Origin: a virus
Reading direction: 5' to 3' (one strand)
Virus record (IMG/VR): IMGVR_UViG_3300032096_000021
Location: 1 to 39,266 of that record
DNA: 39,266 nucleotides
In this document: positions 28,837 to 31,221 of the stretch, piece by piece
Numbering within the stretch: the first letter of the stretch is position 1
Layout of the letters: the number at the start of each line of letters is the position of its first letter
Notes under the pieces: generated by a model
What the model saw: the letters and a program-made list of their open reading frames with translations, nothing else
The model's database searches: none
Told to the model about the DNA's origin: nothing
Made by a program: the position numbers and the translations under genes

Positions 28837-28872
28837 GACGATAAAGGTACACATGGCGTGTAGTTCAGTCAA
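28837..28872 (-). promoter_or_regulatory. Leftward early promoter (PR-like) for cro
   Basis: Minus strand: -35 TTGACT (28872-28867), 17-base spacer, -10 TACCTT (28849-28844). Predicted start is at 28837, one base before the cro ATG. Operator 28848-28862 fills the spacer and part of the -10. The -35 is good, the -10 is weak (3 of 6). Confidence 0.55.
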
Positions 28873-28931
28873 CAACCGTCTCCACGCGGCGTTCATTGCG
28901 GGCACAGCTCCGGCAGTAAACAATGCGTGTA
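28848..28931. promoter_or_regulatory. Operator cluster OR-like (three near-palindromes)
   Basis: Three 15-base sites: TACACATGGCGTGTA (28848-28862), TCCACGCGGCGTTCA (28881-28895) and TACACGCATTGTTTA on the minus strand (28931-28917). They share TACAC-N5-GTKTA and lie 33-36 bases apart. The first covers the cro promoter and the third covers the cI start, as repressor sites should. The first and third fit best; the second has two mismatches in the arms. Confidence 0.65.
28896..28931 (+). promoter_or_regulatory. Repressor maintenance promoter (PRM-like)
   Basis: Plus strand: TTGCGG (28896-28901), 17-base spacer, AACAAT (28919-28924). The expected start is 28931, exactly the A of the cI ATG, so the transcript would be leaderless as lambda cI is from PRM. 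The weak -35 fits a promoter needing activation. Confidence 0.45.
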
Positions 28932-29596
28932 TGGAGCCAATAGAACGCACAAAGCAGGTCCTCGACGAACTCGGATGGAGCTGGGCAAAGCTCGCAAGGG
29001 AGCTCGACACGAACGACCAGCGCTTATACAACTGGAGGCAGAGGGGTCTCCCAGAAGGTGAGGCGCATCGCGTCGCCAAAGCGCTGGGCGTTTCCACCGA
29101 TTGGCTCCTGACGGGAGAAGGTCCGAAACGGTTTTCCGGGAAGATGGACGCAAGCCTTGCTTCAATCGAGCCCAAGGTAGACGCCAACGTGTCAGACGGA
29201 CCTGAGATCAAGGGCAAGGTGCCGCTCATCTCGTGGGTGCAAGCAGGAAGCGCGCAGGAGGCGATTGATTTGTTCCAACCAGGAGTGGCCGATGAGTGGG
29301 TGCCAACATCGGCACCGATCCGCGAACACACCTACGCCCTACGGATCGAGGGCGACAGCATGTCCCCGAAGTTCCAGCCCGGGATGCAGATCATCGTCGA
29401 GCCGGACATGCCCTATGAGAATGGCAGCTACGTGATCGCCAAGAACCAGGAAGGCGAGACCACGTTCAAGCGCCTGGTAAAGGACGCCGGCGTGTGGCTG
29501 TTGAAGCCGGAGAACAGCCAGTACCCGACGCTGCGGCTTGATGACGGGTACAACATCATCGGCGTGGTCCGGCGGGCAGAGATCGTGCTGTGCTAG
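28931..29596 (+). CDS. cI: CI-type repressor, HTH plus S24 (LexA-like) domain
   Basis: 221 residues. The N-terminal CI HTH (about 1-65: RTKQVLDELGWSWAKLAREL, NDQRLYNWRQRG, KALGVSTDWLLTGEG) is joined to a peptidase S24 domain. Self-cleavage site A105-G106 (WVQAGSAQE), serine S143 (EGDSMSP) and lysine K180 (ETTFKRLV) are all present, so RecA-stimulated cleavage and SOS induction are expected. It maintains lysogeny by binding operators at 28848-28931 and 30272-30307. The ATG has no ribosome site and coincides with the predicted transcript start. Confidence 0.92.
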   Translation: MEPIERTKQVLDELGWSWAKLARELDTNDQRLYNWRQRGLPEGEAHRVAKALGVSTDWLLTGEGPKRFSGKMDASLASIEPKVDANVSDGPEIKGKVPLISWVQAGSAQEAIDLFQPGVADEWVPTSAPIREHTYALRIEGDSMSPKFQPGMQIIVEPDMPYENGSYVIAKNQEGETTFKRLVKDAGVWLLKPENSQYPTLRLDDGYNIIGVVRRAEIVLC

Positions 29597-29630: not shown

Positions 29631-30209
29631 ATGAACGCGACGAGGAAGCTCTGCCCGAAATGCGGGTACGAGCGAACGGCCGAAGACGACCAGACCACCC
29701 CACCCGAACAGTGCCCGAACTGCGGGGTGATTTACGAGAAGGCGTTACGCGCGAAGTCTAGCCCCGCTGGAAAACGCGAATCTGGCCCGATCACCCAAGC
29801 GGTTGCCTCGATCCTTATGGTGGTTGTATTTGTGATCGCTGCCGCCTCTTTGTTCTCTGATGATGGAGCCGACGCCACCACTTTGCCAACGAGCAGCGCT
29901 GGATTCGACGAAGTGGATGACGAGGTTGGGTGCGGGAGCGATTACAGCGACGAGAAGCGCGCCGACATATTCCGGGCTCGATACCAGGACCACTGGATGA
30001 CTTGGCCTGGAACAGTGGTCTCGTCGGACAACGGAGAAGTCGATATTGATGCCGGTGCGCTAGGCATGTCCGACCTCGACGTTGAGCTATCCGACCCAGA
30101 CGAAGGCTATGACCTGATTGATGGGGAAGAGGTTGTCATCCGGTTCGTGATGCGCAAACCGGGCGGTTGCTTTATCCCTTTCAGGGGCGACATGGCGTCC
30201 ATTCAGTAG
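29631..30209 (+). CDS. Zinc-ribbon membrane protein beside cI
   Basis: 192 residues. CPKC at 8-11 and CPNC at 28-31 form a zinc ribbon, then a Lys/Arg-rich linker, one membrane segment (about 57-77, ASILMVVVFVIAAASLF) and an outer domain of ~115 residues. The last part (WPGTVVSSDNGEVDIDAGALG to DGEEVVIRFVM) resembles an OB-like fold. AGGAGG precedes ATG 29631. It follows cI on the same strand and is closed by the terminator at 30236, so it is probably expressed in the lysogen. Exclusion or lysogenic conversion is plausible; not recognised as a named system. Confidence 0.75.
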   Translation: MNATRKLCPKCGYERTAEDDQTTPPEQCPNCGVIYEKALRAKSSPAGKRESGPITQAVASILMVVVFVIAAASLFSDDGADATTLPTSSAGFDEVDDEVGCGSDYSDEKRADIFRARYQDHWMTWPGTVVSSDNGEVDIDAGALGMSDLDVELSDPDEGYDLIDGEEVVIRFVMRKPGGCFIPFRGDMASIQ

Positions 30210-30271: not shown

Positions 30272-30307
30272 TACACACGGTGTTGACACAGGTACACGTG
30301 GCGTTTA
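30272..30307. promoter_or_regulatory. Operator pair OL-like
   Basis: TACACACGGTGTTGA (30272-30286) and TACACGTGGCGTTTA (30293-30307) match the sites near cI and are 21 bases apart. The first covers the -35 and the second the spacer and -10 of the early rightward promoter, so CI would silence the whole rightward operon. Confidence 0.7.
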
Positions 30308-30318
30308 TTGTTCACCCA
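30283..30318 (+). promoter_or_regulatory. Early rightward promoter (PL-like)
   Basis: Perfect -35 TTGACA (30283-30288), 17-base spacer, -10 TATTGT (30306-30311, 4 of 6). Start near 30318, about 33 bases before the first ATG. Both flanking operators overlap it. It would drive recombination, excision and integrase genes to the right end. Confidence 0.75.
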
Positions 30319-30350: not shown

Positions 30351-30626
30351 ATGACCACCCACACCGACCACTGGAACGCATCCGGCAAAGCCGCCCTCGA
30401 CAAACAAGGCCGCCGCGCACTGGCGGCAATCTCCAAGCCGGAGGAAGACATGAGCAACGAACACGAACAGCACTCGTCAGCCAACATCGCCCAAGTCGCC
30501 ATGCAGCGACTCAGCGAGATCCAGCCGTCGGCGCAAACCGACCGGAGCCTGGTTGAAGCGATGAACCACCTGAGCAAAGCCCGACAAATGATCGAGACGG
30601 AACTCGCCAGCCGTGGCGACAAGTAA
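30351..30626 (+). CDS. First early rightward protein (91 aa)
   Basis: 91 hydrophilic residues, mostly helical (IAQVAMQRLSEIQ, LVEAMNHLSKARQMIETELA). It is not Arg-rich like lambda N, so an N-like role is not evident. GAGG precedes ATG 30351; ATG 30450 has a better GGAGG and would give a 58-residue protein. First gene of the operon, so produced earliest after induction. Function unknown. Confidence 0.6.
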   Translation: MTTHTDHWNASGKAALDKQGRRALAAISKPEEDMSNEHEQHSSANIAQVAMQRLSEIQPSAQTDRSLVEAMNHLSKARQMIETELASRGDK

Positions 30627-31002
30627 CCACCCCAGCGGACGGTGGGGCTAATAACCGCCGCAGCCGGGGCCGGACTCCCTCGCTACGGCGATCCTTCATC
30701 ACCGGTGACCCGACCGCCTAGCCCACGTAACGGGCTCGACTGGCAGCCGTTAGTTGCCCCTCATCGGGGAGTAGTTTGAACGCCTCATCAGCGAATCAAG
30801 TAGCCACGACGGGGAGCCACTAGATGGCGAGACCACTCCACCGATGCGGTGAAGCTCTCTGGCGAGAGCAGCCACGGCAGTAGTCGCGCGCAACGCTGCC
30901 ACGGACGGGGCCGAGTTCGAATCCGGCCACCGCATCCCCATCCGAGAGCGCTTGCCTGCATCGAGCGCTCCCTGATGGGACAAACAACCAGGAGGACGAC
31001 AG
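30627..31002 (+). other. 376-base non-coding, highly structured stretch
   Basis: No convincing reading frame on either strand, in an operon that elsewhere has almost no gaps. It contains several hairpins in plus orientation: CCACC/GGTGG near 30627-30645, AGCCC/GGGCT (30720-30736), CCCC/GGGG near 30757-30769, a tRNA-like fold (30843-30940) and GAGCGCT/AGCGCTC (30946-30970). None has a T-run, so they are not simple terminators. It may be a structured leader, an antitermination RNA or a processed small RNA. Confidence 0.6.
30843..30940 (+). ncRNA. tRNA-like RNA without a normal anticodon arm
   Basis: GATGCGGT (30843-30850) pairs with ACCGCATC (30929-30936), then C and encoded CCA (30938-30940). 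A 6-bp D-like stem GCTCTC/GAGAGC has loop TGGC. The T arm GGCCG/CGGCC holds GTTCGAATC with one bulged A. An 8-bp acceptor, 5-bp T stem and 6-bp D stem are the proportions of bacterial tRNA-Sec. The 39 bases between D and T arms form one hairpin GGCAG/CTGCC with a 15-base loop; no 5-7-5 anticodon arm exists. It could be a decayed tRNA or a purpose-built mimic. Confidence 0.5.
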
Positions 31003-31221
31003 ATGTTCGGACTACTCAAGAAGCGCCAGCGCCGCCAGATGGCAGTTCAGCGCACCAGCAAGACCAGCGAGATCGACCGCCGGCTGGCGGCAGCGCGTGA
31101 GGCGATGGGGGACAAGTACCTCGGCGGCCGGAACGTCGAGCGCGACGGACCAAAGCCGAGCACCGCCCAGCTTCACCACCGCTGGGATCAGTTCAACAAG
31201 CTCGAGCGGGGTGTGGCATGA
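31003..31221 (+). CDS. Small basic hypothetical protein (72 aa)
   Basis: 72 residues, very basic and helical at the start (LLKKRQRRQMAVQRTSK), with SEIDRRLAAAREAMGDKYLGG later. AGGAGG lies seven bases before ATG 31003. First gene after the structured non-coding stretch, overlapping the next by four bases. It could bind nucleic acid, given its charge, and is a possible candidate for an early regulator, but no family is recognised. Confidence 0.68.
   Translation: MFGLLKKRQRRQMAVQRTSKTSEIDRRLAAAREAMGDKYLGGRNVERDGPKPSTAQLHHRWDQFNKLERGVA

Follow-up and report, generated by a model that had tools for sequence, protein, structure and literature searches.

Between the first two genes of an apparent early operon in a prophage (30351-30626 and 31003-31221) lie 376 bases without a convincing gene, and within them a segment that reads like a tRNA from which the decoding part is missing. 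Is this a chance assembly of tRNA-like pieces, the ruin of a tRNA gene, or an RNA with a role of its own?

The window (the whole stretch of DNA that was analysed, 39,266 nucleotides) is nearly all of one prophage, located at C6:418327-457592 on the minus strand of a 2.73-Mb host genome. The prophage occupies tRNA-Pro(GGG). The intact tRNA is found at 1692-1768; just past the window's right end (beyond 39266; match C6:418176-418262) its 3' half is repeated. Gene order is lambda-like. The minus strand carries the tail, head and terminase genes, a replication protein and an antirepressor-like gene; on the plus strand the order is CI-type repressor, terminator-like hairpin (30235), promoter (30283), small genes, YqaJ exonuclease, RecT, SSB and integrase. 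The features surrounding the segment are as follows.

28931 to 29596, plus strand: CI-type repressor with an S24 peptidase domain (Pfam PF00717, PHROG 4)
30283 to 30311, plus strand: pL-like promoter, TTGACA-17-TATTGT (10/12 matches)
30293 to 30307, plus strand: putative repressor operator within the promoter, TACAC-N5-GTGTA with one mismatch
30351 to 30626, plus strand: opening gene of the operon, preceding the element and encoding a 91-aa orphan protein
30990 to 30995, plus strand: AGGAGG, ribosome-binding site of ORF 31003 (6/6 match, 7 nt before the ATG)
31003 to 31221, plus strand: first gene after the element, encoding a 72-aa orphan protein that is arginine-rich near its start and matches no family

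The motif TACAC-N5-GTGTA, allowing none or one mismatch, occurs at three sites only in the window: 28848-28862 and 28917-28931, which lie between the cro-like gene and cI, and 30293-30307. A weaker copy, with two mismatches (30272-30286), overlaps the -35 box. The total count of such palindromes is not above chance, and it is their placement that is striking: judged by sequence, they are likely to be CI operators arranged as OR- and OL-like pairs. The left operon would then be controlled by the repressor and hence early. The original prediction had placed the element in a phage early operon, and both the lambda-like gene order and the repressor-operator-like palindromes at the promoter agree with it. 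From promoter to element no terminator-like site was found on the plus strand.

The element itself is a 98-nt tRNA-like sequence on the plus strand (30843-30940), composed of an acceptor helix, a D arm, a T arm and an encoded CCA. Its parts, together with the hairpin that follows, are listed below.

30843 to 30851, plus strand: 5' strand of the acceptor-like helix, GATGCGGTG, the perfect complement of 30928-30936
30854 to 30869, plus strand: D arm, GCTCTC-TGGC-GAGAGC, 6 bp with a 4-nt loop as in tRNA-Sec (from the sequence; the D stem is matched in RF01852)
30870 to 30909, plus strand: middle, 40 nt, replacing anticodon and variable arms; its best fold is one hairpin, 30876-30900
30910 to 30927, plus strand: T arm, GCCG[A]G-TTCGAAT-CCGGC, 5 bp with bulged A30914 and a canonical 7-nt T loop (from the sequence; loop and stem align in RF01852)
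30928 to 30936, plus strand: 3' strand of the acceptor-like helix, CACCGCATC
30937 to 30940, plus strand: discriminator C30937 and CCA 30938-30940, encoded, doubling as the 5' arm of the hairpin 30937-30979
30937 to 30979, plus strand: strong hairpin, an inverted repeat in which C73-CCA-TC is paired with GATGGG (-25.5 kcal/mol, z -5.55, 0/200 shuffles)

A tRNA-like RNA had been predicted at exactly these 98 positions, and the acceptor, D and T arms and the CCA all stand, while the middle hairpin and an unbulged T stem do not. The expected 8-bp acceptor is made up of eight Watson-Crick pairs (30843-30850/30929-30936), to which G30851-C30928 adds a ninth. The D-like stem of 6 bp with its 4-base loop is present at 30854-30869, and has a pairing probability of 0.99 when folded in isolation; it may also be read as GCTC-TCTGGCGA-GAGC, a canonical 4-bp stem with an 8-nt loop containing GG, the dinucleotide that in tRNAs pairs with the T loop. 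The T stem and its loop TTCGAAT were seen correctly, save that the unpaired A30914 in the stem was overlooked, and the discriminator and CCA are encoded as described. All 20 pairs of the three stems are intact; the middle is unrecognisable. Its best fold (GGCAGT.A.GT-CGCGCGCA-AC-GCTGCC at 30876-30900) had been described as a single hairpin with a 15-base loop, which exists on paper; the loop has 8 nt when the stem is extended, but 1,628 of 2,000 shuffles of the 40 nt fold at least equally well, so that the hairpin is no evidence of structure. A search of the middle for a 5-7-5 arm with U33 found none, nor any 7-nt loop with U33. That the element lacks a normal anticodon arm is thus upheld, and the middle is better described as being without a recognisable anticodon arm.

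How often would such an arrangement arise by chance? The null model was 1.8 Gb of first-order Markov sequence of the same composition, searched with a descriptor consisting of T loop, T stem, an acceptor of at least 8 bp and a D arm with GG. When CCA was also required the simulated sequence contained no match; relaxing the acceptor to 7 bp gave four matches, and dropping the CCA gave 20. The descriptor is post hoc, having been made after the element was seen, which renders the figure optimistic, although the margin is large. Within the window it matches the element and the genuine tRNA-Pro only. The empty simulation, along with the end-to-end alignment to the tRNA-Sec model described next, disfavours chance: the element is real, odd and a singleton, and is too well formed to be accidental.

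Comparison with known tRNAs gives a divided answer. The Rfam tRNA-Sec model (RF01852) aligns from its first to its last position, across 30843-30936, with 25.9 bits when the stretch is searched alone, below the gathering score of 47 (E about 0.008 when rescaled to the whole genome and one family); neither ARAGORN nor the Rfam tRNA model RF00005 calls the element. That RF01852, and not RF00005, is the model that aligns supports the tRNA-Sec-like proportions originally noted. The likeness lies in the acceptor of 8-9 bp, the 6-bp D stem with its 4-nt loop, the T loop and the length (98 versus about 95 nt); unlike tRNA-Sec, the element has no UCA anticodon arm and no long variable arm, and carries C73 in place of G73, a base called essential for tRNA-Sec (PMC5330540). 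The host genome contains no tRNA-Sec above cut-off, and no SelB above cut-off, the matches being other translation GTPases. With anticodon arm, variable arm and G73 missing, a score below gathering and no SelB match in the host, we reject identity with tRNA-Sec. Without a 7/5 cloverleaf, anticodon arm or U33, it is no canonical elongator tRNA either.

The nearest published company is that of selC* tRNA-Cys and the irregular allo-tRNA-like RNAs (reviewed in PMC7609411). The long acceptor and long D stem are shared, as is an unpaired A in the T stem, which is 51a in selC* tRNA-Cys and one pair nearer the T loop in the element. The selC* tRNA-Cys and allo-tRNAs keep their anticodon and variable arms and have a 12-bp acceptor branch (8/4 or 9/3), and irregular allo-tRNA-like RNAs not chargeable by E. 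coli enzymes are on record (Mukai et al. 2017, in PMC7609411). The element, with a bulged 9/5 (or 8/6) branch and no anticodon arm, is not a member. The tRNA-like domain of tmRNA likewise combines an acceptor and a T arm with no anticodon arm; it differs in having no D stem and a long mRNA-like insert, and the element does not match Rfam tmRNA.

Searches for relatives of the element found none. Blastn of the leader and of the element against phage and plasmid collections returned no homologue; the same was true of a DNA search of genus and family genomes, and of exact arm patterns in IMG/VR. A one-sequence covariance model, of a kind that misses diverged relatives, found no homologue in 27 order, 369 class and 398 phylum genomes, the class and phylum scans using strict filters. 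The neighbours of the flanking genes yielded no such element, and it is absent from the regions upstream of nine YqaJ relatives. The host has a second YqaJ-type exonuclease gene on another contig (C19:16115-16876), perhaps part of a second prophage, and no tRNA-like element was found near it.

What the searches did return were ordinary tRNAs (the covariance model picks up tRNA-Gly and tRNA-Met), weak scattered matches with nothing consistent in kind, and pyruvate-kinase genes. The most repeated non-tRNA match is to the sequence coding for the pyruvate-kinase motif TDAVMLSAET (GATGCGGTGATGCTCTCGGCCGAGA...), which resembles the acceptor 5' strand and D arm (30840-30869) at 23/27 nt, in sense, in three genomes; we set it aside as probably a chance sense-strand likeness to one conserved gene. 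The element's 3' half weakly matches the T-arm region of a phage tRNA-Leu (E 0.9). No similar tRNA is found in the host genome. An old attachment-site remnant was considered and rejected: no host tRNA matches the 3' half, and the integration site of the prophage is tRNA-Pro(GGG), with the duplicated tRNA end just outside the window.

No other fold of the region comes near the significance of the hairpin 30937-30979, most of which lies outside the coordinates first proposed. In it, 30937-30942 pair with 30974-30979, and since this engages both discriminator and CCA, a mature CCA end at 30940 is doubtful. The hairpin has no T tract and was rejected as an intrinsic terminator. The leader as a whole (377 nt) is more stable than its shuffles (z -2.21), and the acceptor is opened in its minimum-energy fold, the difference amounting to 3.5-4.4 kcal/mol as computed by a program that ignores tertiary elbow contacts, which could tip the choice of fold either way.

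What might such an RNA do? The reading we favour, to which we assign a probability of roughly 40%, is that the early (pL-like) transcript carries a cis-acting tRNA-like RNase P site, or a stabiliser of the mRNA 5' end. RNase P reads the acceptor/T stack, the T loop and the elbow, and the anticodon part serves decoding only; a middle that RNase P does not read would be free to vary. What speaks for processing is that the parts read by RNase P are kept and perfectly paired while the decoding part is gone, in an arrangement that the simulated sequence never reached. Support also comes from the element's position, on the same strand inside the leader of the operon with no intervening terminator-like site, and from the significant hairpin directly 3' of it, followed by an open Shine-Dalgarno sequence. 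Among the known targets of RNase P, moreover, are operon mRNAs, tmRNA precursors and regulatory RNAs of phages, including the C4 precursor of P1/P7 (review PMC4919922). Like the C4 antisense RNA precursor, the element belongs to a phage regulatory region, RNase P processing being documented there and proposed here; it differs in matching no Rfam family for such RNA and in having no long complementarity to phage genes. Antisense action on those genes was rejected, the complementarity being no longer than for shuffled sequence.

The functional steps, all of which we infer, would run as follows. On release of the repressor the leader would be transcribed and its tRNA-like part would fold; host RNase P would then cut between C30842 and G30843, separating the first small gene (30351-30626) from the remaining operon. 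What lies downstream, as message or as a stable RNA of some 140 nt ending past the hairpin, would begin with its 5' end buried in the acceptor helix; ORF 31003 and the recombination genes would thereby have their expression protected or regulated. The expected 5' end is 30843 and the expected 3' boundary is past the hairpin, not at the CCA.

Of the features of an RNase P substrate, the coaxial stack of acceptor and T arm with its T loop is present, as judged from sequence and pairing; an accessible RCCA 3' end, which is helpful and not strictly defining, is absent (C73, with CCA paired in the hairpin). RNase P prefers a purine at position 73, and the C found there counts against processing. 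So do the CCA, with which RNase P RNA would pair and which is tied up in the 3' hairpin, the exclusion of the acceptor from the minimum-energy fold of the full leader, and the lack of homologues, which leaves no covariation.

The strongest alternative, which we consider possible but unlikely, is a recently wrecked phage tRNA or allo-tRNA gene, now functionless. A single event would have altered or replaced the anticodon and variable arms of a tRNA-Sec-like or type II ancestor. The 40 nt between D and T stems are about what a tRNA with a long variable arm would have, and they allow a weak anticodon-like arm with CAG (one C-C mismatch, G33); the bulged A in the T stem, the faint tRNA-Leu match and conservation seen nowhere fit equally well. 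Against this, gradual decay would not yield intact stems around an unrecognisable middle, and the host offers no similar tRNA.

Less probable again is a trans-acting tRNA mimic: an early RNA, released from the transcript, that acts as a decoy for host enzymes that handle or target tRNA. It would bind and block partners such as RNase P, EF-Tu, CCA enzymes or tRNA-attacking toxins. The early, repressor-controlled position is where lambdoid phages keep host-takeover genes, and tRNA-cleaving defences are overcome by phage tRNAs (PMC11555353); rescue of that type, however, needs the normal anticodon arm that is missing here, and release of a CCA end would be hindered by the 3' hairpin. A target for an anticodon nuclease, one of the roles first suggested, is unlikely because the element has no anticodon.

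We regard as improbable a larger cis-regulatory leader, an attenuator or antitermination RNA with two alternative states, one being the tRNA-like fold. The stability of the leader relative to shuffles and the separation of its competing folds by only about 4 kcal/mol would suit such a device, and control might come from translation of two touching tiny reading frames (30776-30823 and 30824-30883; 15 and 19 codons). Their Shine-Dalgarno matches are weak, however, and the leader contains neither a T-tract terminator nor a boxA/boxB pair. Ribosomes translating 30824-30883 would enter the tRNA-like fold at its acceptor and D arm. In its arginine-rich start (KKRQRRQMAVQR) the ORF 31003 protein recalls lambdoid N antiterminators, and it matches no family; the N-antitermination leader that this start suggested was rejected on finding no boxA/boxB pair.

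That the element works as a tRNA whose anticodon arm is unusual, say Leu with CAG, is very hard to credit: the mismatched arm GCCAC-GGCAGTA-GTCGC can be drawn, but it is 5.7 kcal/mol worse than the alternative fold of the middle, has G33 in place of U33, comes with a C73 that is wrong for Leu, and belongs to an element called by neither tRNA search; we reject tRNA-Leu(CAG) on the G33 and mismatched stem that it needs. Just as implausible is chance assembly in GC-rich sequence, for which one may cite the ordinary folding energy of the whole 98-mer (z -1.36) and the ease with which strings like its 5' 27 nt recur, as in the pyruvate-kinase match, against a simulation that never produced the full descriptor and a tRNA-Sec model that aligns from end to end.

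tRNA-like RNAs are well known from plant RNA viruses and from tmRNA. In the literature searched, no phage early transcript is described that has an acceptor/D/T fold and lacks the anticodon arm. Tentatively, the locus may represent a repressor-controlled early phage RNA in which the acceptor and elbow of a tRNA are complete while decoding has been given up, serving RNase P as a dedicated processing module or acting as a mimic that sequesters the host enzymes that handle or target tRNA. Should RNase P process it, a temperate phage would be cutting its early message by way of tRNA maturation; a released form would be a candidate counter-defence RNA with no need for decoding. Further such elements may lie unannotated, because ARAGORN and the Rfam cut-offs miss this kind.

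A minor observation concerns the gene at 29631-30209, whose product is without an assigned family: it occupies the position of the lambda rex genes, and the protein has a zinc-ribbon-like start and a hydrophobic segment.
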